From a virus, in the IMG/VR virus record IMGVR_UViG_3300030090_003444, positions 1-49,564 of that record: 49,564 nucleotides of DNA; one strand, 5' to 3'. Shown one piece after another: positions 14,999 to 37,175 of the stretch. Both the position numbers and the translations under genes were made by a program. The notes beneath the pieces were generated by a model. The model was not told the DNA's origin. It saw only the letters and a program-made list of their open reading frames with translations, and did not search any database. The number at the start of each line of letters is the position of its first letter. Position 1 is the stretch's first letter.

Positions 14999-14999
14999 A

Positions 15000-21458: not shown

Positions 21459-21832
21459 TGGCTCATTTCTAAAAAATCTTTTGCGTAAAGAATAGCTATA
21501 GGTTCTTTGCGGTCGCCTTTCACAATGGCAACCGGTTTAGTATCTTTTATTAAATTAGATTCGGCTTGCTCTAGGGCGTCGTATAAAGTCACCCTGGCTC
21601 TGGCTTTGCATTCCACGGTCCAAGGAAACTTACGTCTAGCAAGTGGGCTAAGACCAATATCCGGTCCGTTCACGCCGCCGGGGGTAGACTGGATGTCGTC
21701 GTCTTCAACACCGGGTAGAGTCTGGCGTAACCAATCTCGCACCCACTGCTGAAGACGACGACCCTTAGCCTTCGCTGACGCTACTGATATCTTTCGGTTC
21801 TTCTTGGAAGAACGTGTAGTATTCAAAGGCAT
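21437..21832 (-). CDS. Putative PD-(D/E)xK or VRR-NUC-like nuclease
   Basis: About 131 residues from the ATG at 21832; longer in-frame starts lie deep in the upstream gene. SAKAKGRRLQQWVRDWL is an N-terminal helix. NGPDIGLSPLARRKFPWTVECKAR supplies a D...E-C-K pair, and LEQAESN a helix with Gln, as in small restriction-like or Holliday-junction-type nucleases. Located directly after the Cas4-like exonuclease, which fits a recombination or DNA-processing role. The first 68 bases overlap the exonuclease gene. Catalytic identity is inferred from pattern. Confidence 0.65.
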   Translation of the reverse strand: MPLNTTRSSKKNRKISVASAKAKGRRLQQWVRDWLRQTLPGVEDDDIQSTPGGVNGPDIGLSPLARRKFPWTVECKARARVTLYDALEQAESNLIKDTKPVAIVKGDRKEPIAILYAKDFLEMSQWIKKRH

Positions 21833-23551: not shown

Positions 23552-25599
23552 GTAAAATCGTACTGCTCCATCCAGTTTTTTCCCCTCGACATTTCGACAG
23601 CCAAAGGGATGAAGGTATCAAGACCGAAGCGTCGTTGTGCTTCATCTTGTGCGGCAAGCAAACAGGATGGGCCAATATCTTTTATGATATTTATTTCATC
23701 TGGGTGGCAGTCAATCAACACACTGTCATGCACGGTGTTGATTACACGACTTCTCAAGTCTAGTTCTTTTAGTTTGTTGCACAGCAGAATCACACCGAGT
23801 GGCACGATCTCTGCCGTCGCAACCGATTGAACAGGGTAGTTCACTATTTGGGTCTTGGCGCTGGCGTTCCCCTGGCTATTTCGGAAGCAATCTGGAAAAT
23901 CGAACTGTCTTCCGGTGGCGGTAATGATCCGCTTTGTCCTGATCGCTCGCTCTTGTAGCTCTGTGTGCCAGGCGAAGATGCCTTGGTATTTGGCGAAGAA
24001 CTCTTTGAAGTAAGCCATCTGTGCCGGAGTGCCACTTGTGCCGCCGTAGAGGGGTCGAAAAGTGCTTGCTTTAGCTGGGCCTCGCTCAGTGGGTTCCCCA
24101 TGATCTGTAAGCACTTTCGCAGTGTAGGCGTGGACATCAAAACCATTCTCTACCTCCTCTTTGATTTTGTGATCTCGGGCCAGCGTACCGGCCACGCGAA
24201 ACTCTAACTGTGAATAGTCGATCTCAATCAACTCACCGTTTTCAAACCGGCTTACAAAAGCGCGGCGAACAGGGAACAACTTGCCTTTCGGCATGTTTTG
24301 TAGATTGGGGTTGCTGCTACTTAGACGACCTGTAGCAGTGATACATTGGTTAAAATTAGCATGTAGTAAACCATCAGACTTGATTCCTTTCTTGATGCCT
24401 TCGATGAATGACGCTCTGTAAGTTTCTATTGCAGATAATCGGACGATTGACTCTAAAAACTTTTTAGCGTCTGGGTCTTGCACCTGATTCATGAGGTTGT
24501 TCAGAGTAATCTTATCTGTCTTGAAGCCACCAGATGCCGCCAAGGCAACAGACGGTTTGATATTTAAACCCGCCCGCTCTTTCGTATCTTCTAATAGAAA
24601 GCCTCGCCCGTCACACATCTGACATTTAGTAGCTTTCTTGAACCGCTCTCCGTTTTTCTTAGTTTTAAAAAAAGTACCCCGGCCATGACAGCCGGGGCAT
24701 TGGAGAGAACGGGTCTTGTAGGAGCGTCTGAAGCATCTCGACAGAGCATCTTTGAACTCTGCGAGAGACAGCCGTGGGCGACGTTTCGGTTTACCTTTCG
24801 CATCTGTCCCGATGTTCATGATATCTTTCCATAGAGCTTTATCAACCAGCTTCATGGAGTATAGAACCTCAGACATTTGCTCAGGAGAGGACAAGTTAAC
24901 CGGCGTGTCGCCCACTAGCTTATGGGTAGTCGCAGTCAAGAATGTTGAGAGTTCCTCTTGCTCTTGCGCGTAATCGTGATCCACCTGGTCAAGCACATCA
25001 AGATCAATCGCCATTCCTGACCGTTCGATATCTGTCAGAACCGAGCAAAATTGGCACATCAAATCTCTCACGGGAATGAGTGATGCACCCTCGGCATTGG
25101 TCATTTGCTCCGTCTGTTTCACATAAATCTCAGCAGTTGCCTTGACATCGTGAGACAGATATCTAGTTGCTTCTTCTCTGTGCATATCAGAGAAGTTTTG
25201 TCCTGCACTTAGAGCTTCACCGAGGGAGGCTAATTTCTCGGTGACCTCGTAGCGCGAGGACAGTGCGGCCAAGGCTAGGGGACCTCTTACCGCACGATTG
25301 AGGACATATTGATTAATCATTGTATCAATCACCTTGCCCTCAAAGTTGAAACCACTTTCACGCAACCAGGCTAAGTCAAACTTGGCGTTGTGTGCAATGA
25401 TATAATCAGACTGTGACAGTATGTCGCGAAAGGTTGACAGACCTTGTAGATCGTCTGGGTAAATCACGATTGGCTCATCGTCTACATCAAGTCTCATATA
25501 GCCAATCGCAGCCAGACTATTATTAGCGTTATAGGGCGTCGGGTCTGAACGATCACCATGAAGATCGACTTCTAAATCAATCACCGTATACCGGGGCAT
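23548..25599 (-). CDS. polA: DNA polymerase I (family A) with inserted DnaJ-type zinc finger
   Basis: 683 residues from the ATG at 25599 (GGGAG 8 bases upstream). Proofreading exonuclease: D8/E10, D75 and Y147/D151. Polymerase: motif A D461 (EIDYSQLEFR), motif B R506, K510, F514 and Y518, motif C H624-D625 (VHDSVL). Residues 301-333, between the two domains, contain CPGCHGRG and CQMCDGRG, two CxxCxGxG units as in the DnaJ central zinc finger. This insertion is characteristic of HMO-2011-type phages. F514 aligns with E. coli Phe762. The replicative polymerase of the phage. It overlaps the formyltransferase gene by 23 bases. Confidence 0.95.
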   Translation of the reverse strand: MPRYTVIDLEVDLHGDRSDPTPYNANNSLAAIGYMRLDVDDEPIVIYPDDLQGLSTFRDILSQSDYIIAHNAKFDLAWLRESGFNFEGKVIDTMINQYVLNRAVRGPLALAALSSRYEVTEKLASLGEALSAGQNFSDMHREEATRYLSHDVKATAEIYVKQTEQMTNAEGASLIPVRDLMCQFCSVLTDIERSGMAIDLDVLDQVDHDYAQEQEELSTFLTATTHKLVGDTPVNLSSPEQMSEVLYSMKLVDKALWKDIMNIGTDAKGKPKRRPRLSLAEFKDALSRCFRRSYKTRSLQCPGCHGRGTFFKTKKNGERFKKATKCQMCDGRGFLLEDTKERAGLNIKPSVALAASGGFKTDKITLNNLMNQVQDPDAKKFLESIVRLSAIETYRASFIEGIKKGIKSDGLLHANFNQCITATGRLSSSNPNLQNMPKGKLFPVRRAFVSRFENGELIEIDYSQLEFRVAGTLARDHKIKEEVENGFDVHAYTAKVLTDHGEPTERGPAKASTFRPLYGGTSGTPAQMAYFKEFFAKYQGIFAWHTELQERAIRTKRIITATGRQFDFPDCFRNSQGNASAKTQIVNYPVQSVATAEIVPLGVILLCNKLKELDLRSRVINTVHDSVLIDCHPDEINIIKDIGPSCLLAAQDEAQRRFGLDTFIPLAVEMSRGKNWMEQYDFT

Positions 25600-26218
25600 T
25601 GGTAATCTCCCTCGCCATCTGGCCTGCCAAGTGAACAATCTTGATTGGGGTTGCCCAGCGATCTGCGAACAGGCCCATGAGCTTTTCAGATTGCTCTCTG
25701 TTTTTGTAATGCTGAAAGCCACCGGGGGCCTGTTGATATGGCACGATGGTGTTGTCTTCTATCCGAGGCCAGGTTGCATAGAAAAGATACTCTGCCCGAC
25801 GCAGAAGGTGGTCGTAAAAAGTTTGTAGAGTTTCGGCAGGGTTGTTAAGCCGACACTCAAGCTCCCAATGCTGCATGTAGTCGCTCGCCAGCATGTCGCC
25901 AGTGTCAATGCCTTCGTCGATCTGATGAATAGACACACCTATCGCAGTGCCGTTGTATAAGGCCCATACATTAGGATAGATGCCTCGTCCGTGAGGCAAA
26001 CTAGCTGGGTGAATATTTATGATATTATGTTTCTTAACATGATGGGGCTTAAATATCGGAGCAAAGCCATTGCTGATAATTAAATCAGCAGTCAAGCCGT
26101 TGTCTAGGTCGGACAAAATCTGTCGTTCATTATCCATCATGACAGTGTGACCACGCTGTCTAAGATAAATAGCTATTCTGTCGTTACGCCACTTCGGTCC
26201 ACATATAATTATATTCAT
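25577..26218 (-). CDS. Formyltransferase-like protein (Fmt/PurN fold)
   Basis: 213 residues from the ATG at 26218 (GGAG 7 bases upstream; the GTG one codon earlier is too close). INIHPASLPHGRG carries N68 and H70, and IHQIDEGIDTGDM carries D105: the Asn-His-Asp triad of 10-formyl-tetrahydrofolate-dependent formyltransferases. The C-terminal third lacks the OB-fold domain of methionyl-tRNA formyltransferase. The candidates are a GAR-transformylase-like or sugar N-formyltransferase-like enzyme. It lies between helicase and polymerase genes. Substrate unknown; an amino sugar made via the DegT aminotransferase at 30490 is one possibility. Confidence 0.75.
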   Translation of the reverse strand: MNIIICGPKWRNDRIAIYLRQRGHTVMMDNERQILSDLDNGLTADLIISNGFAPIFKPHHVKKHNIINIHPASLPHGRGIYPNVWALYNGTAIGVSIHQIDEGIDTGDMLASDYMQHWELECRLNNPAETLQTFYDHLLRRAEYLFYATWPRIEDNTIVPYQQAPGGFQHYKNREQSEKLMGLFADRWATPIKIVHLAGQMAREITNAPVYGD

Positions 26219-26230
26219 CACACCTCTCCT

Positions 26231-26290
26231 ATAATATATATATTAATATATGTTTATATAATACTATATTAATAATATATATTATATATA
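26231..26290. other. 60-base stretch of almost only A and T
   Basis: Only one G and one C in 60 bases. It contains TATATTAATATA and ATATTAATAATATAT, both self-complementary, so it can form weak hairpins or melt easily. It forms the leader of the formyltransferase gene, between it and the helicase. It could act as a DNA-unwinding element near replication genes or as a structured leader; nothing in the sequence decides. Confidence 0.6.
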
Positions 26291-26319
26291 GATATAGAAC
26301 TTCCAGGTCCTTATCAGTC

Positions 26320-26348
26320 CAGATAACATGCTTTTTCGGCTTTGTCAA
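26320..26348 (-). promoter_or_regulatory. Possible promoter upstream of the formyltransferase/polymerase genes
   Basis: On the - strand, a perfect TTGACA (complement of 26343-26348), a 17-base spacer and a weak TATCTG (complement of 26320-26325). It lies in the 137-base gap after the helicase stop, followed by the A/T stretch. The poor -10 box lowers confidence. Confidence 0.45.
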
Positions 26349-26355
26349 GCATTTT

Positions 26356-27570
26356 TTAGTCATGATACCTAGAAATTTCTGGAACAATTTTCACAATACA
26401 TCTGCCATGTCTACCACCAACCTTGTTTTTAGACACTGTAAGGTAGCGTAAAAAATTATCCGATCCATTATCAGTTGTTTCTTTGCCAAGGCCAATCACA
26501 TAATCAGCCTCAGCAGGTTTGCTAATCTTGCTCCCAGACATTTGCGTGAATCGTAAACTTGTTCGACCATCTGCACTCGCATCCGCTTGTGTGACAGCGA
26601 TAACAGAGCAATTATTTTTCTTGGCAATCTCACGGCCCCGGCGATACACCTCACCAAGTTTCAAATCATCTCTATGAAACTGACCGTTGATATTCAGCTT
26701 GTCCATTTGGTCAATGACAACGATGTCTGGTTTGTGTTTTTTCACTAGGGCTTCTAGCTGGCGTATGTCAGTTGTTTCATGAAACAAAACCTTGTCTTTG
26801 ACCTGTCGCCACTGGTCAGCCGCACAGTGCCGGTTATTCAATATGCGTTGCTCGTTATACCCAGTGTGACTCATGACAGCGCGAAACCTGGTGGCCTCTG
26901 CCGGCTCCTCGTTAGCGATATACAAAACCCTGGCACCCTGCGCTGCGAACCCCTCTGGTCCGAAGCACAAGCTGATACCAAACGCAGACTTGCCAGACTC
27001 GACAAGCGCGAAGACGATCCCAAAGTTGCCGGGTCCAATACCAGGGATCAGGTTTGTCAACCCTGCTAAGTTAAATCGCCAAGGTAGCTTTGTGTTGTTG
27101 TACTCAAGGATTTCATCAAAGTCGGTTGACAAAACATCAAGTTGTTTGTCTGGGATGAACCCACCTTCGTATTTATCAGCAAGCTCTCTGAGCGTGGTCA
27201 GGTCAACATCCTTACCGTCGATAAGACTCATGCCTATCTGCGCCACTGTCTGCCCCATATACTCTCTAAAGGATGCCTTCAAGACTTCCTCAGCTACGTC
27301 TGCCCCGATCACCGGGTCGATAGTGTGCAACAGCTTGTCATACATGGCCTTCTGTGCAGCCGTTAGCAAAGGGTTGTTAGCATGTAAGAGTGCCTCGACC
27401 TCGGCTATGGTCAGATCACGTTTGTATTTTAGGTGAGCTTGTTCGATCACCTGATAAATCTTTTTGCTCTCCTCCTCAAAATAGTTTTCGCCCAGTAGTA
27501 AATTGTTTTGCTCCCAAAAATCATAACGTAAAAACAAACCCAGTAACAAATTGCTGGTGTTATCCGTCAT
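26356..27570 (-). CDS. Replicative DNA helicase, DnaB-like
   Basis: 404 residues from the ATG at 27570 (GGAGGAG upstream). An N-terminal helical domain (residues 1-110) is followed by a RecA-type ATPase: Walker A ALVESGKS (188-195), a conserved NEEP glutamate near 221, Walker B DIVVID (282-287), and TQADASADG (an H3-like switch). This is the DnaB/gp4 C-terminal helicase pattern. It would unwind DNA at the fork with the separate Toprim primase encoded upstream. A 56-residue gene lies between the two and overlaps this one by 11 bases. Confidence 0.9.
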   Translation of the reverse strand: MTDNTSNLLLGLFLRYDFWEQNNLLLGENYFEEESKKIYQVIEQAHLKYKRDLTIAEVEALLHANNPLLTAAQKAMYDKLLHTIDPVIGADVAEEVLKASFREYMGQTVAQIGMSLIDGKDVDLTTLRELADKYEGGFIPDKQLDVLSTDFDEILEYNNTKLPWRFNLAGLTNLIPGIGPGNFGIVFALVESGKSAFGISLCFGPEGFAAQGARVLYIANEEPAEATRFRAVMSHTGYNEQRILNNRHCAADQWRQVKDKVLFHETTDIRQLEALVKKHKPDIVVIDQMDKLNINGQFHRDDLKLGEVYRRGREIAKKNNCSVIAVTQADASADGRTSLRFTQMSGSKISKPAEADYVIGLGKETTDNGSDNFLRYLTVSKNKVGGRHGRCIVKIVPEISRYHD

Positions 27571-27730
27571 GATCTTCAATCTCCTCCAAGAAAGATAGAG
27601 TTTCGTGTATCTCTTGCCACGCATCTTCATCATCGCGGCCTCTTAGATGAGCGAACGGATGGTAGTCTAACCGTTCTTGCCTGGCTGCATCTAGTTGTTG
27701 TTGCAGCTTTTGATTTAATCGCCTCTTCAT
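27560..27730 (-). CDS. Small charged protein between primase and helicase
   Basis: A 56-residue gene found by translating the gap. Its ATG overlaps the primase stop (ATGA) and its stop overlaps the helicase start, so it is tightly coupled to both. A basic Gln/Arg-rich first half (KRRLNQKLQQQLDAARQER) is followed by an acidic C-terminal helix. A run of six Gs sits 7 bases before the start. Could be a helicase-loading or primase-linking peptide by position only. Confidence 0.65.
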   Translation of the reverse strand: MKRRLNQKLQQQLDAARQERLDYHPFAHLRGRDDEDAWQEIHETLSFLEEIEDHDG

Positions 27731-28464
27731 TCTACTACCCCCCTGGGATAAACTTTCGGGTCTTCTTTTAAAATCTTCATAGTAGCAGTGGTAAACTGTT
27801 TAATTCTTTTGGTCAAGTGCAACGCCTTATTTGTCGCGTCTCTATCAAGAGCGACGGTGACTGACCTATACTGTGATATTATTTCTAGCGCACGATCTGT
27901 TAGTTGTGTCCCCAGCAAGGCAATACCTGTACCGTATTGAGAGACCGCCGCGGCTGATGCTGCATCTTCAACCACAATCGCGTGGTGAATGTCAGTCGGT
28001 ACGATGAATGGTTCTTTACTGGTGCCGTAGCGCAACCACTTGACACCTTTGTGCAAGGCTCTGCCTACTGCATCGACGGGTTTATTGTCTGCCTTGATTA
28101 TAAAGACGACACGATTAGCAGCCACATCGTAGTACAACTGCACACGGTTTGCTTTCCATGCATCTAACACATTGTTTTTTTCAAGATACCTGACCATGCG
28201 GACAGGGAAATCTAACGTGAAAGACGGTGGGATAACAAATTCTGGTGGTGGTTTAGGCTGTTGTTTTCTATGTGCTAAATCAGCACGAGATAGCTTCGTA
28301 CCAATGCCACCTTTGGCTGGACAGCTTGCTTTGTAACAATTCCAAACCGTGTTATCGCGCTCTTTTGTTATAGTAAATGTATTAACACCGCCGCAGAAGG
28401 GACAGTCAAACCGCTTAGTCTCACCGATCTTCAACATCAAATCGTTTATTAGCTCTTCGATCAT
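27727..28464 (-). CDS. DNA primase, zinc-binding and Toprim domains
   Basis: A 245-residue protein. C21, C24, C43 and C48 form the N-terminal zinc ribbon that reads template. The Toprim catalytic core has E166 (VVEDAAS) and D207-x-D209 (ALDRDAT), which bind Mg2+. It makes RNA primers for the lagging strand. It is primase only, with the helicase encoded separately downstream, in contrast to the fused T7 gp4. AGGGGGG lies 6 bases before the ATG in place of an ordinary ribosome binding site. Confidence 0.88.
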   Translation of the reverse strand: MIEELINDLMLKIGETKRFDCPFCGGVNTFTITKERDNTVWNCYKASCPAKGGIGTKLSRADLAHRKQQPKPPPEFVIPPSFTLDFPVRMVRYLEKNNVLDAWKANRVQLYYDVAANRVVFIIKADNKPVDAVGRALHKGVKWLRYGTSKEPFIVPTDIHHAIVVEDAASAAAVSQYGTGIALLGTQLTDRALEIISQYRSVTVALDRDATNKALHLTKRIKQFTTATMKILKEDPKVYPRGVVE

Positions 28465-28502
28465 TCCTGTCCCCCCTACGTTTATTTGGTATGACCCTCG
28501 GT

Positions 28503-28748
28503 TTATATTTCGGGGTCATCAAGTCTTTTGCGAAACGATTCGATTTCTTTTTGGGTTTGTTCTTCACTATCGAAATCTTCCCATGTTCGCAGGTTTATGT
28601 GATCTTCGATTATTTCTATATCACTTAAATTAAATTCTAACGGGAGATCAAGCTGGGAAAATTCCTCGTCCCACTCCCAAAGTAAATTGTCGGCAGTACA
28701 GTAAATTATATCAGGCGCTTCACTTCCAACTTCATAATCTTTTCCCAT
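28503..28748 (-). CDS. Acidic small hypothetical protein after the tRNA
   Basis: 81 residues from the ATG at 28748 (AGGAAATAAC upstream). The longer frame would run through the tRNA gene and is rejected. Very acidic (many Asp/Glu), with several Trp and Leu, a composition often seen in phage proteins that mimic DNA or bind host enzymes. No family recognised. It starts 16 bases downstream of the tRNA 3' end in the same transcript. Confidence 0.65.
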   Translation of the reverse strand: MGKDYEVGSEAPDIIYCTADNLLWEWDEEFSQLDLPLEFNLSDIEIIEDHINLRTWEDFDSEEQTQKEIESFRKRLDDPEI

Positions 28749-28763
28749 GTTATTTCCTTTTAG

Positions 28764-28839
28764 TGGCGCTCCCTGCAAGACTCGAACTTGCAACCCACAG
28801 CTTAGAAGGCTGTTGCTCTATCCATTGAGCTAAGGGAGC
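28764..28839 (-). tRNA. tRNA-Arg (anticodon UCU)
   Basis: 76 bases fold into a complete cloverleaf: acceptor GCTCCCT/AGGGAGC, D-stem GCTC/GAGC, anticodon stem ACAGC/GCTGT around loop CTTCTAA (anticodon TCT), T-stem GCAAG/CTTGC around TTCGAGT, discriminator G, and an encoded CCA. It reads AGA codons, which are frequent in the virion genes here. It lies 12 bases downstream of the XRE-regulator gene and is probably processed from the same transcript. Confidence 0.95.
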
Positions 28840-28851
28840 GCGGTCTTTGCG

Positions 28852-29319
28852 TCATCCAGAATTATCTGGAGGACCGGCAGTGTCTACTTTCTGCCTATAG
28901 AAATGCTTGTGAAGCATCTCTAACTTTTCATCATAATCAGCTAACAATCCAAGCTGACTATCTAATGTTTCTATGATGTCTGGATGTTCAGCCAGCCCAA
29001 CATGATTATTGAACAACACACTGATGTTCGCTTTATGCTTTGCAATCTGGCCTTGATAGTATTGCTCCAGCGAATCTAAAATATATCTCTTGGTGTCCAT
29101 CGTCACTTGTTTCTCCTCACCAAACAAAATGGCCTCCGGCGTTGTCCCCATCAACTCAGCGTAGAGGGTTGCTGTTTGCACACGAACACTGCGCTGACCT
29201 GATTCGTGGGTGTAATAAGTTGCCTTTTGTTTTGGCTCTAACATTGCCTCAGCAAATGCTTTGGCAGTTTTAAACCCGGCAGCTTTTCGTGCTTGTTTTA
29301 ATCTTTCACCGACAGTCAT
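28852..29319 (-). CDS. XRE-family helix-turn-helix regulator
   Basis: 155 residues from the ATG at 29319; a GTG start 15 codons earlier is possible. Residues 4-60 (GERLKQARKAAGFKTAKAFA ... TLYAELMG) form a Cro/CI-type five-helix DNA-binding domain. The remainder is helical and may mediate dimerisation. No S24 protease-like cleavage motif is seen, so it is not a classic LexA-type repressor. Candidate targets are the palindromes at 36959 and 36984 near the control region. It is followed by tRNA-Arg. Confidence 0.82.
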   Translation of the reverse strand: MTVGERLKQARKAAGFKTAKAFAEAMLEPKQKATYYTHESGQRSVRVQTATLYAELMGTTPEAILFGEEKQVTMDTKRYILDSLEQYYQGQIAKHKANISVLFNNHVGLAEHPDIIETLDSQLGLLADYDEKLEMLHKHFYRQKVDTAGPPDNSG

Positions 29320-29382
29320 TTGTTGCCACCCACTAGTCTTGCAATCATGTAGACCCTTAGCCACTCATCTTCCCAATCGAAC

Positions 29383-30393
29383 TCAACCTCTTGTTTCTTC
29401 CACGAACTCGTTGAATCGCTTGTAGATTTTTGTGTAGGTCGCTTTGTCCCACACATATTTTTTGATTCCTTCTGCGAAGTCATAGTCCTCGCCTTTCTTC
29501 AACCCCAATAATCTTTCTTGTCCTACTTCTCCCTCGGCTTCGATTACCTTCGGCAACGCATCAACCGGTAGCCATTGGAGGTACTTAGAACCCGGTAAGA
29601 AGAAGTTTAACGCAGCCGGCCCACCGTTGTGACTGAGGTTGTAAGCTGCTAGGTGATACATCGCCACGCGCAGGTCTAAATTAACCGGTCCAGGCCAATA
29701 GACCTTGAGATCATGCAGGTCATTCGCGTCATGGATAACAACCTGCTCGGTGTCAGGCATGACCACCGGATGCCAGCCCTCCTTTGTTATTTCTCGCGCA
29801 AACCGTAGCCATGATTGAAGGTTGCTGTTGCGCTCTTTTTCGATGGCAGATTGGCGCACGGTGATCGTGACCATATGCTCGGTATCGACACCTTGCTTCT
29901 CACACCATAGCTTTGCCAACCTGACGGCCTCTGGACAAGGCTTGAGACAGACCGGTGTGATGCCTTCGTTCTTCTCTTTTACCTGCCCATAAATATCAAC
30001 CACCTGCGCCAACATAAACGCGCCGTTTGGTTGGTTGATATGATAGGACGGTGGCCAGATCAGACTACCCGGCAAAGCTGCGAGTTCTTTAGCTGCCTCG
30101 TTTCTATCAAGGTAGACCGAGTGGCCAGCGTATTCTGGTGTCATGCGGGCGATTGGTTCTAGTATATGCTTCAATCGCCACATCTTTTCATCGGTGGTCA
30201 GTGACCCATCCTTCGGCGTCTGCATTCGCCATGTCCGGTCGGGACCTAATACAAATACAAAGTGGATATACTTTGCGTTGTTCGCCGCCCGCGCCATCTC
30301 ACAATTCACAGCAAAATGCATGAAATCAAACGTGATCGGCGCGATGGCTAGGTCATAGACACAAAACAAAGTTTCGTTTGGTGATCGGAACAT
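29383..30393 (-). CDS. Possible glycosyltransferase-like protein
   Basis: 336 residues from the ATG at 30393 (GGGAGG upstream; the longer TTG start is disfavoured). The C-terminal half contains AAYNLSHNGGPAALNFFLPGS, like the NGGP/SNxGP segment that binds the sugar nucleotide in some GT-B glycosyltransferases. The N-terminal half is alpha/beta with ICPs of no known motif. It follows a DegT-type aminotransferase and a 49-residue gene. Together these suggest sugar or nucleotide-sugar chemistry. The family assignment is by weak pattern only. Confidence 0.4.
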   Translation of the reverse strand: MFRSPNETLFCVYDLAIAPITFDFMHFAVNCEMARAANNAKYIHFVFVLGPDRTWRMQTPKDGSLTTDEKMWRLKHILEPIARMTPEYAGHSVYLDRNEAAKELAALPGSLIWPPSYHINQPNGAFMLAQVVDIYGQVKEKNEGITPVCLKPCPEAVRLAKLWCEKQGVDTEHMVTITVRQSAIEKERNSNLQSWLRFAREITKEGWHPVVMPDTEQVVIHDANDLHDLKVYWPGPVNLDLRVAMYHLAAYNLSHNGGPAALNFFLPGSKYLQWLPVDALPKVIEAEGEVGQERLLGLKKGEDYDFAEGIKKYVWDKATYTKIYKRFNEFVEETRG

Positions 30394-30542
30394 TAAAGTT
30401 TGTCCTCCCAATAGCGTTCTACCTTACTGCGGATTGCGTAGCGGAACCGGTAAAAGTATTCCCAAAATTGTTTCGGGTCCTCTGACTGTTCAGCCGTCTT
30501 TTGGATCTCTTTCCATACGAGTTGCTCTAACTTGCTCAACAC
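30393..30542 (-). CDS. 49-residue charged protein between sugar genes
   Basis: Found by translating the gap. It starts at GTG (or the next TTG), 5 bases after a run of six Gs, and overlaps the aminotransferase end by 53 bases. It ends in TAATG shared with the next gene. The sequence is aromatic and basic (KQFWEYFYRFRYAIRSKVERYW). A short helical binding protein is likely. Coupling to both neighbours supports it being real. Confidence 0.6.
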   Translation of the reverse strand: MLSKLEQLVWKEIQKTAEQSEDPKQFWEYFYRFRYAIRSKVERYWEDKL

Positions 30543-31794
30543 CTTTACCCCCCTGTTGTTGAGTTTTAACAACTCTCTCCTCGACGTTTGTTATCGCCAG
30601 CAAGATTTCAACCGCGTCTTTTTTGGTGTAGTTCTCGTTTAAAAACAGGTTGAACGAACCATCGCGCATCGCTCTGGCGTTTGGGGTCTTGGGCGCGTGA
30701 GGCGCATGACCCTCTGAGTATTTTTGAGTTGGTTGCCAATTAATATAATCAGCCGCCCACTCCCAATCGCTGACTAAGCAACCGTAATGCGGTAGTAAAC
30801 CTACACCCTCGGCTTGAACGGCTTCAGCAAACTCCGTCTTTGTGACGGTAATTTTTTTCTCGTCAACAATAATTGGCAAATAAAATGGCGAGTGTCCATC
30901 GTGATAGCCCTCTGGTATAGAGCATACCTCGCTGCATTTGTCAAGTAATTTCTTTAGTTGAGCGACAAATTCGTTACGTTTTATTATGGTTTCGATTGCT
31001 CGCTTTACACTTGCCTCACCTATCGCACAAGAAAACTCGTCAGTATTCCAGTTCAAGGCAGGGAAAAGCGCATTGCTTGGGTCATTTTGATTTAAGTCTG
31101 ACCGCCAGGTTTGTTTGCCGCGATCTTTGTGTGCCAGAACATGATTGCCCAGCCCAGTCTGGCCACCCTCTTTGATATACACCAGCCCGCCCGATCCACC
31201 GCTTTGAATTGTCTTGCGGTACATAGTTGAGAAGGCGGCGATGTCTCCAAACTGACCAACGTAACTATAAGCTACGCTCTTAGGCATGGCGAACGGGGCC
31301 TGGCTGCAATCTTCAACAAGATATATACCACTGCTGGCGCAATCCTCAGCAATCTTCGGGATATCCTCGACCGGCGCACCGGCTGCATGGACAACAAAGA
31401 CCGCCGCCGTTTGATCCGTCACGCAGTCTATAATAGATTGCCGGTTGACGTTGTAAGAACCCGGTGCAGCGTCAGCGATAACCGGAACAAAGCCTAGCGC
31501 AACGATGGCCGCTAATGGCCCGCTGTCGGTGACCGGAGACAAGATAACCTCGGACCCGCCCGGTAGGTTATAGAAGGTCTTGAGTGCGGCTAACGCTAGA
31601 TAGCAGGCTCCAGTCCCCGTCGCCACCGGGACAGCGAAACCACCGTTCATTTGCATCTCAAAACGTAACGCAAACCTACGCTCAAACCTGCCTTGATAGG
31701 GCGGGTCCTCTCCGTGACTGCTGTAGTATTTCATCACCTCAGCCACGGCGGCTTGCTCTGCATCCCCGAATGCTTGTCGGTTAGGTTGTTTCAT
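30490..31794 (-). CDS. DegT/DnrJ/EryC1-type aminotransferase
   Basis: A 434-residue PLP enzyme of fold type I. VATGTGACYLAL (about 57-68) binds the cofactor phosphate, D162 (YLVEDCSQAP) pairs with the pyridine nitrogen, and K194 (FSTMYRKTIQSGGSGG) is the Schiff-base lysine. Family members transfer an amino group to keto-sugar nucleotides or act as sugar dehydratases. The glycine loop after Lys is altered from the usual GEGG to SGGSGG. Neighbouring genes hint at an amino-sugar or nucleobase modification; the substrate is not shown by the sequence. Confidence 0.82.
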   Translation of the reverse strand: MKQPNRQAFGDAEQAAVAEVMKYYSSHGEDPPYQGRFERRFALRFEMQMNGGFAVPVATGTGACYLALAALKTFYNLPGGSEVILSPVTDSGPLAAIVALGFVPVIADAAPGSYNVNRQSIIDCVTDQTAAVFVVHAAGAPVEDIPKIAEDCASSGIYLVEDCSQAPFAMPKSVAYSYVGQFGDIAAFSTMYRKTIQSGGSGGLVYIKEGGQTGLGNHVLAHKDRGKQTWRSDLNQNDPSNALFPALNWNTDEFSCAIGEASVKRAIETIIKRNEFVAQLKKLLDKCSEVCSIPEGYHDGHSPFYLPIIVDEKKITVTKTEFAEAVQAEGVGLLPHYGCLVSDWEWAADYINWQPTQKYSEGHAPHAPKTPNARAMRDGSFNLFLNENYTKKDAVEILLAITNVEERVVKTQQQGGKGVEQVRATRMERDPKDG

Positions 31795-32172: not shown

Positions 32173-32200
32173 AAAAAAAAAGAGACGCCGAAACGTCTCT
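32173..32200 (-). terminator. Intrinsic terminator closing the early block
   Basis: A 7-bp stem, AGAGACG (32181-32187) with CGTCTCT (32194-32200), loop of six. The - strand transcript continues into eight or nine Us (complement of 32173-32180). It stands after the early genes and only 7 bases before the start codon of the next gene. No promoter is recognisable between them. Confidence 0.88.
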
Positions 32201-32416: not shown

Positions 32417-32715
32417 CCCTTGCCCTCCAAGTGATACCGGTTGAACACATAGAACCTATTGAACCGGTTCTCCCCTACGTTTAGCCCATAGATGATAGCG
32501 TCTTCTATGAGTGCGCCAATGGCGTTATCATCAAACGCCTCATCATCAAGAGGGTTGGTATCGTAGTCTTGAAACTCAATGTCCACCAGATTGTCGCCGG
32601 CATCCAGTTCAAAGCGAATGGTGTGCAAGTCCTCGTCAAACCCATTGGCCGGCCACTTCGATTTGAATTCTTGAATAGCCTTGGGAAAGATCAGGTACGA
32701 TTTGTATTTATTCAT
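32413..32715 (-). CDS. Early hypothetical protein, acidic
   Basis: A 100-residue acidic protein (many Asp, e.g. PLDDEAFDDNAIGALIED), with a basic aromatic end (RFNRFYVFNRYHLEGKG). No membrane segment or recognised domain. Overlaps both neighbours by 4-8 bases. Acidic early proteins frequently bind host factors, but no motif supports a specific target. Confidence 0.65.
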   Translation of the reverse strand: MNKYKSYLIFPKAIQEFKSKWPANGFDEDLHTIRFELDAGDNLVDIEFQDYDTNPLDDEAFDDNAIGALIEDAIIYGLNVGENRFNRFYVFNRYHLEGKG

Positions 32716-33019
32716 CTCCGGTCTCCGTCGGGGTCACATCAAACTTATGCTGGAACTTTACAATTTTTTCGAGTGCCCGCTGTGCGTCCAGCAGGTCTTC
32801 TAACATATGCCAAAGCGCCGACCTTGATAAGTCTTCTAATTCGACACCATGTCCTGCGTCGGTCTCAACGTCGGCTATCGCGTTACGGACCAACCGTTGA
32901 ACAAATGACCAATCGGTTTGTAAAATTTTGGTCACCATGTCATCAATCGAACGTGCTTTAGACAGCGCGAGATCGTCCAGGGTTTTAAGGTTGAGATTGG
33001 TCACATTTTCTTTCGTCAT
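32708..33019 (-). CDS. Early hypothetical helical protein
   Basis: A 103-residue, largely helical protein with Leu/Ala heptads, e.g. SALWHMLEDLLDAQRALEKI. Start supported by GGAGAGAGAAG directly upstream. Hairpin cassette copy A (33043-33097) lies in its leader. No family recognised. First of three coupled genes that end the early block. Confidence 0.68.
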   Translation of the reverse strand: MTKENVTNLNLKTLDDLALSKARSIDDMVTKILQTDWSFVQRLVRNAIADVETDAGHGVELEDLSRSALWHMLEDLLDAQRALEKIVKFQHKFDVTPTETGDE

Positions 33020-33042
33020 CTTCTCTCTCCGTTGTAGGTTTA

Positions 33043-33097
33043 TAGGGTCTTGTTCTGGGCCGGAATAATTAAACCCCGGCCCAGCCTCAAGAACCTA
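33043..33097 (-). repeat. Hairpin cassette copy A
   Basis: Outer stem TAGGGTCTTG (33043-33052) with CAAGAACCTA (33088-33097), one central G/A mismatch. Perfect 9-bp inner stem CTGGGCCGG (33055-33063) with CCGGCCCAG (33076-33084). The stop codon of the gene ending at 33087 lies inside the outer arm. The next ribosome binding site (GGAGAGAGA) follows about 12 bases after the hairpin. No T-run, so not a terminator. Confidence 0.85.
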
Positions 33098-33377
33098 CTC
33101 TTAAATCAAGAACCCCATACGCCATCCGCCGTGACCAAATGACTTTTGTTATGTAGTGCATATCTTGATCGTCCAAAGTTGGCCAGATATAAGACACATA
33201 GTCAGCTACATCGTCAACAGTTGGTTGGTCGGTCAGTTGTCCAATTTTTCGATAGCATTCTGCCGCACACGCATGTGCCTCTTTCTTTAAAATTTTCTGC
33301 CATTCCCCGTAAGTAACAAATCGGCCTGTGCCGTCAACGTCGTCACCTTCTTCCCAATACTCAATCATTTTTGTCAT
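33087..33377 (-). CDS. Early hypothetical protein
   Basis: 96 residues from the ATG at 33377, chosen because GGAGAGAGAAG lies just before it; upstream in-frame ATGs fall inside the hairpin cassette. Acidic N-terminus (EYWEEGDDVDGTGR) with a Tyr/Gly motif TYGEWQKIL, two Cys in HACAAECYRK, and a C-terminal helix. No family recognised. The TGA stop is embedded in cassette A. Confidence 0.66.
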   Translation of the reverse strand: MTKMIEYWEEGDDVDGTGRFVTYGEWQKILKKEAHACAAECYRKIGQLTDQPTVDDVADYVSYIWPTLDDQDMHYITKVIWSRRMAYGVLDLRVGS

Positions 33378-33400
33378 CTTCTCTCTCCGTTTTAGGTTCA

Positions 33401-33455
33401 TAGGGTCTTGTTCTGAGGCAGGATATGACAACCCTGCCCCAGCCTCAAGAACCTA
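33401..33455 (-). repeat. Hairpin cassette copy B
   Basis: Outer stem TAGGGTCTTG (33401-33410) with CAAGAACCTA (33446-33455). Inner stem CTGAGGCAGG (33413-33422) with CCTGCCCCAG (33433-33442), nine of ten paired. An additional pairing TAGGTTC (33393-33399) with GAACCTA is possible. The TAG stop of the gene ending at 33453 is the first triplet of the hairpin in the reading direction. Confidence 0.85.
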
Positions 33456-33872
33456 CTCGTCTTCTTCCTCGCCCATTCCGTCGTTTTTGCCGGTGAAAAA
33501 CTTGATCTCTTCGCGTATGATAGATACGGCCAAGGCCCACTGATGGCCCCTATATTCTTCGATAAATTTTTGCATGTCATCAATCATGTTTGGGCCTTCA
33601 AACATAAAGGCGGTGTGCAAATCTCGCCTAATCCAGTCAAAGGCGCTGACCGGGTTTAACTCTCCGAAATCTTCGTGGTCCTCGTCATAGCCTAGCTCGG
33701 CCACGGTGTTCAAAAATTCATCCGTATTCCAAGCGATCCAAGCAGACGCGGAATGCTGGTGCGGTATTTCTAAAATTAACCGAATTCCCCAGTCAATCAC
33801 CGCCTGGCCGTTTTCATTAAGGCTAACGCCGTTGTCGATGTCATCTCTCAGCATGTAATCTACTATGCTCAT
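33453..33872 (-). CDS. Early hypothetical protein, acidic tail
   Basis: A 139-residue protein with GGAGAGAGAAG before its ATG. Acidic overall with many Trp and Asp (ASAWIAWNTDEFLNTVAEL; HEDFGELNPVSAFDWIRRD), ending in GMGEEEDE. The Trp/Asp-rich, acidic make-up suggests a binding protein. No motif recognised. It lies between cassette copies B and C. Confidence 0.68.
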   Translation of the reverse strand: MSIVDYMLRDDIDNGVSLNENGQAVIDWGIRLILEIPHQHSASAWIAWNTDEFLNTVAELGYDEDHEDFGELNPVSAFDWIRRDLHTAFMFEGPNMIDDMQKFIEEYRGHQWALAVSIIREEIKFFTGKNDGMGEEEDE

Positions 33873-33894
33873 CTTCTCTCTCCGTTTAAGGTTT

Positions 33895-33951
33895 CTAGGG
33901 TCTTGTTATTGGCCAGGATATAAAAACCCTGGCCAATCTTCAAGAACCTAG
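33895..33951 (-). repeat. Hairpin cassette copy C
   Basis: Outer stem CTAGGGTCTTG (33895-33905) with CAAGAACCTAG (33941-33951), one central mismatch. Perfect 10-bp inner stem ATTGGCCAGG (33908-33917) with CCTGGCCAAT (33928-33937). The TAG stop of the 38-residue gene sits at 33948-33950 inside the arm. A GGAGAGAGA box follows before the next start. Confidence 0.85.
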
Positions 33952-34064
33952 CCCCGGCGGCCTTTCAGTAAGGCGTGAATAGCCTTAGCCTCTTTCGGTT
34001 TGATACGGGGGTCGCGTTTGATTGCCGCATCCACGGCCTTCTTGTTATAGGTTGGCGTTTTCAT
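33948..34064 (-). CDS. 38-residue basic microprotein
   Basis: Found by translation of the gap. ATG overlaps the upstream stop (ATGA), with GGAG 10 bases before. Basic and helical (KAVDAAIKRDPRIKPKEAK, then IHALLKGRRG). The RI..KEAK.IHALLKGR pattern is one I have seen repeatedly in small proteins of unrelated phages, which favours a real gene. Function unknown. Its stop lies inside hairpin copy C. Confidence 0.7.
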   Translation of the reverse strand: MKTPTYNKKAVDAAIKRDPRIKPKEAKAIHALLKGRRG

Positions 34065-34168
34065 TGGCTGAACTCTCCTTTGATAATAGATTGCAGTTGG
34101 TCAACGGCTAACCAAATGAGGGAAGCAGTCAACCCAGTAACTAAGATCACTCCAAGCACCTCAGTCAT
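34061..34168 (-). CDS. 35-residue membrane microprotein
   Basis: Residues 4-22 (VLGVILVTGLTASLIWLAV) form one membrane helix, followed by a polar tail (DQLQSIIKGEFSQ). Start ATG overlaps the previous gene's stop (ATGA), and its own stop overlaps the next ATG. With the gene at 34165-34299 it forms a tandem of two proteins that both begin MTE and then enter the membrane. The role is not known; small membrane peptides in early phage operons often alter the host envelope. Confidence 0.62.
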   Translation of the reverse strand: MTEVLGVILVTGLTASLIWLAVDQLQSIIKGEFSQ

Positions 34169-34299
34169 GACAAGGTTCCCGACTGTTGCAGAATTAAAAC
34201 ATCGGCCGGGAACATATCTTGAGCAACCCAGGCGGCGGCTAGGTAGAGCATAAACCCTACCAAACCCGCGAGCAGTGTCGTCCAAACCGCCTCAGTCAT
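34165..34299 (-). CDS. 44-residue membrane microprotein
   Basis: It begins MTEAVWTTLL, then a hydrophobic helix (AGLVGFMLYLAAAWVA), then a short polar C-terminus. One membrane span. The ATG overlaps the end of the upstream 136-residue gene by 8 bases and the stop overlaps the next ATG. Its similarity in start and layout to the following microprotein suggests duplication or a paired function. Confidence 0.62.
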   Translation of the reverse strand: MTEAVWTTLLAGLVGFMLYLAAAWVAQDMFPADVLILQQSGTLS

Positions 34300-34702
34300 T
34301 GTTGGCCTCCTCCTCAATTTTATAACGCCAGTCTATTAACTTTCTTTGGACCCGATGCATCATTTCAAACCTGGCAACGGTCATAAATAAAACTTGAACC
34401 GTCTCCGTCACAGTTGAGCGGCGTTGGATAGGTTCAAAATCCAACGCCGCCTCGAACCCCGCGCGAGTTGCACAGCACTCGCACAACTCCTCCGCCCATC
34501 TCGGGTTGAAGGTATACGCGGACGTGTCAACCCATGACAATATGGCATCGTCTTGCTCCTCTATGCTGTCAGGATATTCGCCGACAATCTCCTCGGCAAA
34601 GGAGGCGCACAATTCGTCCAAATATTCGTCGCCCGTTTTGTTGTAATAGGCGGCGTTGAAATGGTGATCCGCAAGGTCGGTGACATATTTCCGGTTATAC
34701 AT
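34292..34702 (-). CDS. Early hypothetical protein with cysteine cluster
   Basis: 136 residues from the ATG at 34702 (GGAGAGAAC upstream; longer starts fall inside cassette D). Helical, with CECCATRAG (three cysteines) near the middle and an acidic end (EEEANND). A His pair (ADHHFNAAYY) lies near the N-terminus. A metal site is conceivable but unproven. No known family. Confidence 0.66.
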   Translation of the reverse strand: MYNRKYVTDLADHHFNAAYYNKTGDEYLDELCASFAEEIVGEYPDSIEEQDDAILSWVDTSAYTFNPRWAEELCECCATRAGFEAALDFEPIQRRSTVTETVQVLFMTVARFEMMHRVQRKLIDWRYKIEEEANND

Positions 34703-34725
34703 GTTCTCTCTCCGTTGGTTGGTCT

Positions 34726-34782
34726 CTAGGGTCTTGTTATGGGCCAAGGTATCTGAACCTCGGCCCATCATCAAGAGCCTAG
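34726..34782 (-). repeat. Hairpin cassette copy D
   Basis: Outer stem CTAGGGTCTTG (34726-34736) with CAAGAGCCTAG (34772-34782), one central G/G mismatch. Inner stem ATGGGCCAAGG (34739-34749) with CCTCGGCCCAT (34758-34768), ten of eleven paired. Lies 9 bases past the stop at 34792 and before the ribosome binding site of the gene at 34702. Confidence 0.85.
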
Positions 34783-34791
34783 TCTTTTAGG

Positions 34792-35118
34792 TTAGGGAAG
34801 CTGATAACCGCCGTCTGCGATTGTTCCTGGCGCCGTGATCCGGTGTTTGTCGCTGCGAATAACTAGCCGCGCCGTCAACGCGATCCGCGACGCGATAGCA
34901 TCGGCGGGGCCTTTATTTTCCCGCGTGAAATCCTCAATGCCGCGCTCAATAAGTAGCGCGTCGTTATGGTCGAAGACGTCAACCGCGACGATATCGCCGG
35001 CCGGATATGTAAGCGCGACGACAGCGTGGCTAATCGGCAAGTTATGTTGTGGCCAGCCCGCGCCGTTATAGCCGGCGATAGTCTCTGGCCCAATGGTGAT
35101 TATTTTCAGATCAGTCAT
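34792..35118 (-). CDS. Early hypothetical protein
   Basis: A 108-residue protein. Ribosome binding site GGAGAGAGA, 6 bases before ATG. Alternating hydrophobic/polar strands (ISHAVVALTYPAGDIVAVDVFD) and a basic later part, predicted alpha/beta. TIGPETIAGYNGAGW gives a glycine-rich start. No recognised catalytic motif. It uses more GC-rich codons than its neighbours. Confidence 0.66.
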   Translation of the reverse strand: MTDLKIITIGPETIAGYNGAGWPQHNLPISHAVVALTYPAGDIVAVDVFDHNDALLIERGIEDFTRENKGPADAIASRIALTARLVIRSDKHRITAPGTIADGGYQLP

Positions 35119-35145
35119 TTGGTCTCTCTCCGTTTGGTTGGTTGG

Positions 35146-35205
35146 TTGAGGGTCTTATCATGGGCCGGCGTCTGATACAACCCCGGCCCATTGTAAGAGC
35201 CTCAA
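35146..35205 (-). repeat. Hairpin cassette copy E
   Basis: Outer stem TTGAGGGTCTTA (35146-35157) with TAAGAGCCTCAA (35194-35205), one central mismatch. Here the terminal pair of the TCTTG arm is A-T instead of G-C, and the lower stem is TTGAGG/CCTCAA instead of TAGG/CCTA: both sides changed together. Perfect 9-bp inner stem ATGGGCCGG (35160-35168) with CCGGCCCAT (35183-35191). The TGA stop of the ArdC-like gene (35202-35204) is in the arm. Confidence 0.87.
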
Positions 35206-36104
35206 GCGGCTATGGTTTCATCTCGGCTAGTTTGACCTGCCAGGTCAGTTAGGAAGGTTGCGGCAGTACTGGCGGCGGTCGCGGCCTTAAAGAATGCGCT
35301 GGGCTCGTCTTTGAGTTTTTGCATCCAGTTGTTAAGGTACTTGGCGTGATCCTCGCGAGGCGTAACAGATATTTCAAGTTGAGAACACAGCATCGCCGCG
35401 CCTAGCTCGGCCACTAATTCCTCTTGGGCATAGTCTTTGGTCCCAAAAGATGTGCCAAACTTCCGGTCTAACCGTGAGTGGTGACCGCTCCAATGCGTCA
35501 ATTCGTGGAGCAAGGTTGCTTGGTAATCCTCCACCGTGTTGAATTGGTCACAGTGAGGCATGTTAATGAAATCCTGGGAGGGGACATAAAACGCGCGGTC
35601 CGTTTTGATGTTCTTCAAAATCGCGCCGCAATCCTTCACGAAATCATCCGCGACCGTTGGAATGTTTGTCACCTCAACCGGTTTAGCAAAGGCCGGCCGG
35701 TTGCCGTCCGCGTCCGCGACCTGGTCCGCGTTGAACACGTTGAAAGGTTTCGTGCTGGTATAGTGTCGCTCTTTGTCCGTGTCTTTATCTTTGACGCCGT
35801 GAATTACACGAAACCCGCCAACGCTTTTTTCGCCGGCCTGGACCTGGAACCCAAGTTCTAGCCATTGCGCATAGGTCGCCCAGTAGTTGGAGGCGTAACC
35901 CTTAGCCGTTGCGGCAAGGTTCAATCGCACCCAGTTGAAACCCTGATAGGTCTGTTGGGTGAGTGCGTTGGTCGGTGTAAGGCCGGCCTTGCCGCTCCAA
36001 GATTTGAGCCACTGGGTCCCATGCTCCATCATAAGGGCGCGGATTTGCGAGGCGACCTCAAGGTGCGCTTCCTGCTGCATTTGATAGACTGATTTCTTGG
36101 CCAT
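35202..36104 (-). CDS. ArdC-like antirestriction protein with metalloprotease domain
   Basis: 300 residues from the ATG at 36104 (GGAGAGAAAC upstream). The N-terminal domain (TPTNALTQQTYQGFNWVRLNL) resembles the ssDNA-binding region of ArdC and TraC-type antirestriction proteins. The C-terminal domain has H200-E201-x-x-H204 (LLHELTHW) and a downstream Glu (AQEELVAEL, about 228), the zincin metallopeptidase signature found in this family. ArdC protects incoming plasmid DNA from restriction; early placement here suggests the same for phage DNA. Its leader holds cassette F and its stop lies in cassette E. Confidence 0.82.
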   Translation of the reverse strand: MAKKSVYQMQQEAHLEVASQIRALMMEHGTQWLKSWSGKAGLTPTNALTQQTYQGFNWVRLNLAATAKGYASNYWATYAQWLELGFQVQAGEKSVGGFRVIHGVKDKDTDKERHYTSTKPFNVFNADQVADADGNRPAFAKPVEVTNIPTVADDFVKDCGAILKNIKTDRAFYVPSQDFINMPHCDQFNTVEDYQATLLHELTHWSGHHSRLDRKFGTSFGTKDYAQEELVAELGAAMLCSQLEISVTPREDHAKYLNNWMQKLKDEPSAFFKAATAASTAATFLTDLAGQTSRDETIAA

Positions 36105-36130
36105 GTTTCTCTCCATTCGTGAAAGGTTTG

Positions 36131-36186
36131 ATTAGGGTCTTATCATGGGCCAGGAAAAGAACCCTGGCCCATCGTAAGAACCTAAT
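36131..36186 (-). repeat. Hairpin cassette copy F
   Basis: Outer stem ATTAGGGTCTTA (36131-36142) with TAAGAACCTAAT (36175-36186), one central G/A mismatch. Perfect 10-bp inner stem ATGGGCCAGG (36145-36154) with CCTGGCCCAT (36163-36172). Copy most upstream in the early transcript. It overlaps the TAA stop at 36186-36188. GGAGAG precedes the ArdC-like start downstream. Confidence 0.87.
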
Positions 36187-36464
36187 TACCGGCCTGCTAA
36201 CTTAAGCATTCTCTCGGTAACTTTTTGAACGGTCTCCTCTTTCGCCTCCTTTGCTCTCTCCTCAAGGCGTTTCTCAAACTTTTCTGTAAGGTCCGACAAA
36301 GATTTGGCGCGGTCGGCCCAGTAGATCGCCGCCTTGAAATCTCTCTCCTGTAAGTTTCTCTCAGCAAAGCCTGAGAATTTCTCGATGAAATATTGCAGGT
36401 CGGTAAAGAGCATCTCCACAGTCACGGTTGCGTTGTCCAAATCTGTTTCGATAATCGTGGTCAT
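36186..36464 (-). CDS. First early gene: helical hypothetical protein
   Basis: A 92-residue protein with GGAGAGAGA before ATG. After a short beta-like start (MTTIIETDLDNATVTVEM) it is one long charged helix region (LEERAKEAKEETVQKVTERMLKL). It is the first gene after the early promoter and so among the first proteins made in infection. No family recognised; coiled-coil partner binding is likely from composition. Confidence 0.68.
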   Translation of the reverse strand: MTTIIETDLDNATVTVEMLFTDLQYFIEKFSGFAERNLQERDFKAAIYWADRAKSLSDLTEKFEKRLEERAKEAKEETVQKVTERMLKLAGR

Positions 36465-36500
36465 TTGGTCTCTCTCCGTTGGTTAAAAGTTTACTCGCCG

Positions 36501-36521
36501 GACCGGTTTTCCCCGCCGGTC
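36501..36521 (-). promoter_or_regulatory. 5'-end hairpin of the early transcript
   Basis: GACCGG (36516-36521 read on the - strand) pairs with CCGGTC across a 9-base loop. The predicted start of the early RNA is about 36521, so the transcript would begin with this stem. Read on the + strand the same hairpin is followed by six Ts (36522-36527) and could stop antisense transcription. Confidence 0.55.
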
Positions 36522-36526
36522 TTTTT

Positions 36527-37146: not shown

Positions 37147-37175
37147 TTGACATTTAAAATTATATAGTGTATAAT
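37147..37175 (+). promoter_or_regulatory. Consensus sigma70 late promoter
   Basis: TTGACA (37147-37152), exactly 17 bases, TATAAT (37170-37175): a perfect match to the bacterial consensus. The flanks TTTTTAC and GC after the -10 box are shared with the capsid promoter at 47972. It drives the rightward packaging and virion genes through a leader that contains a terminator. Confidence 0.92.

Follow-up and report, generated by a model that had tools for sequence, protein, structure and literature searches.

The early operon of an HMO-2011-type marine podovirus carries six hairpins of 52–56 nt each, all on the minus strand between 33043 and 36184, and we consider it probable that they are T7-style intercistronic mRNA processing hairpins, predicted to be cleaved and arrived at by convergence. 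The window, by which we mean the whole 49,564-nt stretch that was analysed, belongs to this phage type by its family A DNA polymerase, which contains a DnaJ-like insert with CXXCXGXG motifs visible in the translation, and by tblastn with this polymerase, for which the best matches were CRP-212, CRP-3, CRP-235 and HMO-2011 at ~40%. HMO-2011-type phages are among the most abundant phage groups of the ocean. The nearest isolated relatives of the carrier phage infect Alphaproteobacteria. The operon extends from ~36.5 to 32.2 kb (Table 1) and its genes are presumably early genes, among them one for an ArdC-like anti-restriction protein (Pfam PF08401, E 5.6e-20; PF18818, E 9.4e-45; phrog_7245, E 2e-76); the intrinsic terminator probably marks the end of the early transcript.

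Table 1. Features of the hairpin-bearing early operon, in the order of transcription
Feature	Positions	Strand	Details
Leader of first early gene	36465..36500	-	TTAACCAACGGAGAGAGACCAAATG, no hairpin (direct reading)
First early gene	36186..36464	-	92 aa, no assigned function
Hairpin F	36133..36184	-	First in transcript; 9-bp outer stem, T.C mismatch, 2x2 internal loop, 11-bp inner stem
Leader 3' of F	36105..36132	-	Contains GGAGAGAA; then AUG of ArdC-like gene at 36104
ArdC-like anti-restriction protein	35202..36104	-	300 aa; ArdcN + zincin-like metallopeptidase
Hairpin E	35148..35203	-	3' of ArdC-like gene; G.G mismatch in inner stem
Leader 3' of E	35119..35147	-	(AACC)n, then GGAGAGAG; AUG 35118
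Early gene	34792..35118	-	108 aa, no assigned function; not in the relative's early operon
Hairpin D	34727..34781	-	Stop codon 10 nt upstream
Leader 3' of D	34703..34726	-	ACCAACCAACGGAGAGAG; AUG 34702
Four overlapping genes	33948..34702	-	136, 44, 35 and 38 aa; no internal hairpins
Hairpin C	33896..33950	-	Starts with TAG stop of 38-aa gene
Leader 3' of C	33873..33895	-	Contains GGAGAGAG; AUG 33872
Early gene	33453..33872	-	139 aa; not in the relative's early operon
Hairpin B	33401..33455	-	Starts with TAG stop of 139-aa gene
Leader 3' of B	33378..33400	-	Contains GGAGAGAG; AUG 33377
Early gene	33087..33377	-	96 aa; not in the relative's early operon
Hairpin A	33043..33097	-	TGA stop of 96-aa gene within 5' arm
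Leader 3' of A	33020..33042	-	Contains GGAGAGAG; AUG 33019
Early gene	32708..33019	-	103 aa; orthologue in the relative at 64%
Intrinsic terminator	32181..32200	-	AGAGACG-TTTC-GGCGTCTCT-T8; the relative has one too

A search of the 49.6 kb with the arm pattern AGGGTCTT-N30..55-AAGANCCT returned exactly six matches, as against none in 100 dinucleotide-shuffled versions, and no seventh copy was found in the window; all six intercistronic elements proposed in a first-pass annotation are in place. Their general fold consists of 4 bp, a 1x1 mismatch, 5 bp, a small internal loop, 11–13 bp and a short loop, and in the window copies it reads ((((.(((((...((((((((((((......))))))))))))..))))).)))). Folded alone, each copy reaches -29.7 to -35.2 kcal/mol, with z of -4.7 to -8.1. 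The single central mismatch of the conserved outer stem, originally given for the plus strand as G/A or G/G, is Y.C in the mRNA sense (T.C in A, B, C and F; C.C in D and E). The inner stem comprises 12 bp (11 in F, and with one G.G mismatch in E) rather than the 9–11 bp first described, and the loop has 6 nt instead of 8–13 bases. Between the two stems lies an internal loop of 3x2 nt in A–D and 2x2 in E and F, and the outer stem of E is extended to TTGAGG/CCTCAA. With a cut-off of E 1, none of the Rfam covariance models matched any of the elements.

The pattern of substitutions points to a selected mRNA structure and not a DNA dyad. Across ten copies, six from the window and four from a related phage, which are not mutually independent, 99.0% of the cells are paired and six to seven pairs have changed on both sides. 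Neither missing covariation nor random substitution of duplicated stems, both considered in the first-pass annotation, was found: the covariation score was 0.290 as compared with 0.152 for shuffled alignments, none of 500 shuffles reaching the observed value, and whole-arm swaps between copies lowered pairing from 0.99 to 0.89 and broke the inner stem, with 0 of 5000 reaching the observed pairing. The G-C to A-T double change previously noticed in E and F is real and lies at pair 10/48, and further double changes occur in the inner stem; the outer stem is near-invariant, with eight of its nine pairs never varying. Because 14 G.U pairs but no A.C pair are found on the mRNA strand, selection on the sense RNA is indicated.

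Placement between genes is equally regular. In the early operons of the two phages, hairpins occupy 10 of 10 non-overlapping gene junctions versus 0 of 11 overlapping ones (p = 2.8e-6). In A, B, C and E the stop codon, thought to lie in or next to the arm in every copy, overlaps the 5' arm; it sits 1 nt upstream of F, but 10 nt upstream of D. The AUG follows 23–29 nt from the hairpin end, and the intervening leaders are unpaired and A/C-rich. The ribosome binding site expected after each copy is GGAGAGAG in five of them, whereas F has GGAGAGAA instead. The first gene of the operon possesses a GGAGAGAG leader without a hairpin, an arrangement found in both phages. No T-run follows any of the six full hairpins, in agreement with the earlier view that they are not terminators, and the intrinsic terminator, which calls for a T-run right after the stem, was rejected; nor was a sigma-70-like minus-strand promoter found at any of the six elements.

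Our comparison reveals a close likeness to the early RNase III sites R0.3, R0.5, R1, R1.1 and R1.3 of T7, which likewise separate early genes at several places on a polycistronic messenger, each hairpin being closely flanked by a stop codon and a ribosome site; as in T7, the early messenger begins with anti-restriction. At all 10 junctions of the two phages the element lies between the stop codon and the next ribosome site, and it offers ~two turns of dsRNA in which an internal loop separates the lower and upper stems. The first-pass annotation knew of no named family with this layout, yet the T7 sites have near-same structure in the same position: an outer stem, interrupted by a 1x1 mismatch in three of the five sites, then an internal loop and an inner stem of 9–10 bp, the fold of R1 being ((((.(((((..(((((((((....)))))))))...))))).)))). 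The internal loop of R1.1, a site that separates genes 1 and 1.1, is asymmetric, with 4/5 nt (PMC6121014). A sequence-free descriptor recovers five of the six window copies, all four copies of the relative and T7 R0.3, R1 and R1.1, with six matches in the 40 kb of T7; at a setting of at least 20 bp it yields five matches on the window's minus strand versus 0–2 in 40 Markov controls.

The differences from T7 are also clear. The inner stem here has 11–13 bp and the loop 6 nt, as compared with 9–10 bp and a tetraloop in T7; the internal loop is wider on its 5' side here but on its 3' side in T7; and the copies are near-identical in sequence, unlike the T7 sites, to which they show no sequence similarity and from which the carrier, a member of an unrelated phage group, is distant. 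Because the R1 model, run against the T7 genome, matched nothing at E <= 1, lending no support to common descent, and because the DNA polymerase groups with HMO-2011, the likeness is taken as convergence. No mention of HMO-2011 together with RNase III was found in the papers searched.

We propose that the host RNA polymerase would transcribe the early operon as one messenger, in which every translation-unit boundary would fold into a two-storey hairpin, with the fixed Y.C mismatch in its outer stem and a small internal loop below an inner stem of 11–13 bp. Host RNase III would cut close to the internal loop and yield single-gene pieces; such cleavage is known at the T7 sites, whereas here it is predicted from the fold. 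A stable 3' structure would remain on the upstream messenger, an unpaired A/C-rich leader with a strong GGAGAGAG ribosome site would head the downstream one, and overlapping, translationally coupled genes would remain uncut together. RNA processing or stabilisation, which headed the roles suggested at first, is the best-supported one. The conservation of the outer stem exceeds what RNase III alone should need; an RNA-binding protein with sequence specificity, or homogenisation of the copies through recombination, would agree with it as well.

Of the other explanations, the strongest, although we consider it unlikely, is a hairpin that stays uncut, blocks 3' exonucleases and shields the next ribosome site from ribosomes and upstream structure. 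The contact between stop codon and 5' arm, the unpaired leader and the restriction to non-overlapping junctions agree with it, but a plain hairpin would suffice for this purpose, leaving unexplained why all 10 copies have the Y.C mismatch and why the internal loop and the outer arms are conserved, and with neither cleavage nor a nearby terminator the hairpin would not stand at a 3' end. Somewhat less likely still is a multi-copy operator at which a phage or host RNA-binding protein regulates early translation or mRNA decay; it would account for an outer-stem sequence and Y.C mismatch conserved beyond the needs of pairing, but none of the early proteins was recognised as a candidate regulator, and T7 uses the same fold, without that sequence, for RNase III. 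A put/nut-like RNA that brings about antitermination by modifying RNA polymerase, another role suggested in the first-pass annotation, has very little probability, despite the two-storey hairpins in an early operon and a scan of larger frames that revealed no RNA polymerase gene, because a single promoter-near copy would do, yet the hairpins are tied to gene boundaries, one per non-overlapping junction, and the operon leader has none. A DNA-level recombination or dyad-binding site with the RNA fold as by-product appears just as improbable, for although it agrees with chimeric cassettes and with gene turnover whose junctions fall inside elements, it is opposed by the G.U bias of the sense strand, the single orientation, the mismatch that breaks dyad symmetry and the location between stop codon and ribosome site.

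Two other groups of named multi-copy intergenic repeats adjoin gene starts, a further exception to the supposed lack of a named family. The promoter early stem-loops (PeSLs) of T4-type phages, reportedly treated by Arbiol 2010 and Comeau 2014 and covered in a further published account (PMC4503421), are repeated intergenic cassettes by which early genes are shuffled through recombination. The present elements resemble them as repeated intergenic stem-loops at which recombination shuffles early genes; however, a PeSL combines a promoter with a terminator stem-loop, whereas a ribosome site is found here, and identity with PeSLs was rejected in that the elements show neither a promoter-like site on the minus strand nor a T-run after the full hairpin. 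SAS/ESAS are likewise multi-copy intergenic inverted repeats right upstream of a conserved ribosome-site sequence. In the ESAS of cluster K mycobacteriophages there is little support for pairing of the arms in mRNA, and SigA-like promoters lie inside (PMC3203893, PMC11373665); unlike ESAS, the arms covary here and no promoter was found. Identity with SAS/ESAS (uncompensated 17-bp repeats, a SigA-like promoter, the 13-bp GGGATAGGAGCCC) was rejected on compensating arms, the missing promoter and a different sequence.

The hairpin cassettes also act as recombination joints, because the elements are near-identical, a role beyond the view of the first-pass annotation. The 30-kb relative (L122) has four copies. 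Its copy R4 combines the upstream flank of C (95%) with the downstream gene of A, and its copy R2, which equals B in 54 of 55 bases (98%), lies between unrelated genes and is followed by the leader of E (93%); these chimeras show that recombination between cassettes shuffles genes, as in PeSLs. In addition, a gene has been replaced between flanks that are 92–94% identical. Homologous recombination at such near-identical elements would add, remove and exchange early genes.

The element was found in only these two, closely related phages. More distant HMO-type contigs and isolates yielded no copies; several relatives at 75–86% are represented by contigs without the early region and hence have no bearing on absence. 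The region had no blastn match among isolated phages. A loose arm pattern produced more than 100 matches in IMG/VR, by chance, and the matches of a stricter pattern were real only in two relative contigs, the others lying in coding frames without the fold of the element. Among 85,000 bacterial and archaeal genomes the stricter pattern matched 19 times, and the best 4 of the 19 by model score fold at only -9.7 to -13.1 kcal/mol. A weak model match in G001 (L179:10063-10099) is apparently coding sequence, judged by its letters alone.

It is quite possible, although we suggest it more tentatively than processing itself, that processing hairpin, standard leader and ribosome site make up a dual-use cassette that renders early genes plug-and-play and evolved outside the T7 group. 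If so, processing would release any gene that had come to lie between two cassettes as a separate, translatable messenger, and gene exchange through recombination and selection for processing of the RNA would reinforce each other. If the processing role holds, the early-messenger strategy of T7 would be no peculiarity of T7, having been reached independently by a marine phage, and early-gene turnover would gain a concrete mechanism in which exchanged genes are still expressed alone.

The 49.6 kb virus record carries helicase, terminase and portal genes, and its DNA polymerase, whose best isolate matches are Roseobacter CRP phages and Puniceispirillum phage HMO-2011 (~40% identity), places it, by sequence, as an HMO-2011-type marine podovirus. 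The six hairpins, A–F (F first in the transcript, A last), lie in a minus-strand operon encoding an ArdC-like anti-restriction protein and small proteins of no known function; the anti-restriction gene and the layout suggest that these genes are early. Among the other genes tabulated below, the sulfotransferase, oxygenase and hydroxylase-like genes are unusual podovirus cargo, and the aminotransferase and formyltransferase genes perhaps serve sugar or base modification.

Coordinates of the operon, its hairpins and further features of the window and related contigs
Feature	Location	Strand	Remarks
Operon with hairpins	~36.5 kb to terminator	-	
Strong intrinsic terminator	32200-32181	-	Operon end
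Hairpins A–F	33043-36184	-	
Terminator-like hairpin	36500-36522	+	Within the minus-strand operon's leader region
Perfect sigma-70 consensus promoter (TTGACA-17-TATAAT)	37147-37175	+	AT-rich surroundings, between two divergent operons
Two sulfotransferase genes, 2OG-Fe(II) oxygenase, Asp/Asn hydroxylase-like gene	3665-4471, 13893-16226		
Very stable hairpin (-46.7 kcal/mol)	21695-21764		Within coding region; arms GTCGTCGTCTTCA/TGAAGACGACGAC
DegT/DnrJ/EryC1 aminotransferase and formyltransferase genes	25577-31794		With tRNA-Arg
Relative L122/L125	IMG/VR contig 3300017912_001693		Near-twin 3300017909_002530
Long 12-bp tandem repeat arrays of L207 (72% relative)	IMGVR 3300025889_000291, 872-1383 and 3852-4946		About GTCAGGGATCAG; side where early genes are expected

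The hairpins share a single orientation and lie at gene boundaries. In four copies the 5' arm and the stop codon overlap; in the other two the stop codon precedes the arm by 1 and 10 nt. The next AUG follows 23–29 nt past the hairpin end, after an A/C-rich, frequently (AACC)n spacer that terminates in GGAGAGAG or, after F, in GGAGAGAA. Hairpins occupy 6/6 non-overlapping and 0/5 overlapping junctions in the window operon, and 4/4 and 0/6, respectively, in that of the relative L122, which carries four copies (R1–R4); pooled, this gives 10/10 versus 0/11 (Fisher p 2.8e-6). In both phages, the operon's opening gene carries the leader but lacks the hairpin. This junction pattern, together with the hairpin-free leader, indicates that the hairpin is a feature of the borders separating translation units.

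The positions of the six elements reported in the first-pass annotation were reproduced: the arm pattern gave six matches across the window, and 100 shuffles gave none. In mRNA sense, the 5' side comprises TAGG-Y-TCTTR, an internal loop and an inner stem of 11–12 bp, followed by a 6-nt loop, and the 3' side comprises the inner stem, an internal loop and YAAGA-C-CCTA, except that in hairpin E the two terminal bases are G and C. Folded singly, the six copies have energies between -29.7 and -35.2 kcal/mol, a stability that no more than 1 of 200 shuffles equalled. A search of the window with a covariance model of the ten copies, whose own high scores arise by construction, turned up no additional site at E ≤ 1 beyond lower-scoring matches to the same six in opposite-strand reading. 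No Rfam family matched at the elements.

Across the ten copies, standard pairs fill 99.0% of cells, six pairs show double-sided changes and all five measures exceed every one of 500 shuffles, a signal lost when partners are slid, while swapping whole 3' inner arms among copies lowers mean pairing from 0.99 to 0.89, with 0/5000 swaps reaching the observed value. Hand alignment adds a seventh double-sided change, at pair 10/48, where E, F and L122 R1 have A-U in place of G-C. The sense strand holds 14 G.U pairs and no A.C, and therefore the constraint acts on the messenger rather than on a DNA dyad or antisense RNA. As the copies are kin through duplication and recombination, all these counts overstate independent events.

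The five RNase III sites of the T7 early region, at what we take to be their positions, were folded as a yardstick. T7 R1 and the window elements both consist of 4 bp, a 1x1 mismatch, 5 bp, an internal loop (2x3 in T7 R1, 3x2 or 2x2 in the window) and an inner stem, which spans 9 bp with a tetraloop in T7 R1 versus 11–12 bp with a 6-nt loop in the window (13 bp in L122 R1). A layout descriptor with no sequence term of any kind gave six matches in the 40 kb T7 genome, R0.3, R1 and R1.1 among these, and recovered 4/4 L122 copies and 5/6 window copies, missing E because of its G.G mismatch. Set to at least 20 bp, it matched the window minus strand five times, versus 0 to 2 times in 40 Markov controls. 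The asymmetric 4/5-nt internal loop of T7 R1.1 (PMC6121014) was likewise returned by the descriptor. Given unrelated sequences and phages of different groups, we treat the likeness as convergence. RNase III cuts the T7 early messenger at five sites, yielding mature mono- and dicistronic mRNAs (PMC4858673). For the window hairpins, the data establish the structure, selection on it as RNA, the junction placement and the use as exchange joints; by form and position, they are probably also cut by RNase III. The main doubt comes from the near-invariant outer-stem sequence, which could reflect a sequence-specific protein or homogenisation by recombination.

The cassettes, each a hairpin with its leader and ribosome site, also contain the joints of gene exchange. 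L122 is 88–94% identical to the window across long stretches, and between flanks of 92–94% DNA identity the early operons differ in gene content: the window has specific genes of 92, 108, 139 and 96 aa, in their place L122 carries genes of 85 and 73 aa, and ArdC is common to both yet only 51% identical. L122 R4 combines the upstream flank of C (95%) with the downstream leader and gene of A, and R2 equals B at 54/55 bases between unrelated flanking genes, with the leader of E (93%). In effect the cassettes resemble the PeSLs of T4-type phages, which have a promoter and a terminator, whereas the window cassettes have neither.

Covariance model searches gave no convincing copy in HMO-2011, CRP-212, CRP-3 or any of 20 other contigs, of HMO type or more distant, nor did strict pattern scans of IMG/VR and 85,000 genomes give further convincing members. 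Because the contigs of several 75–86% relatives end before the early region, the hairpin family may be larger than the two phages.
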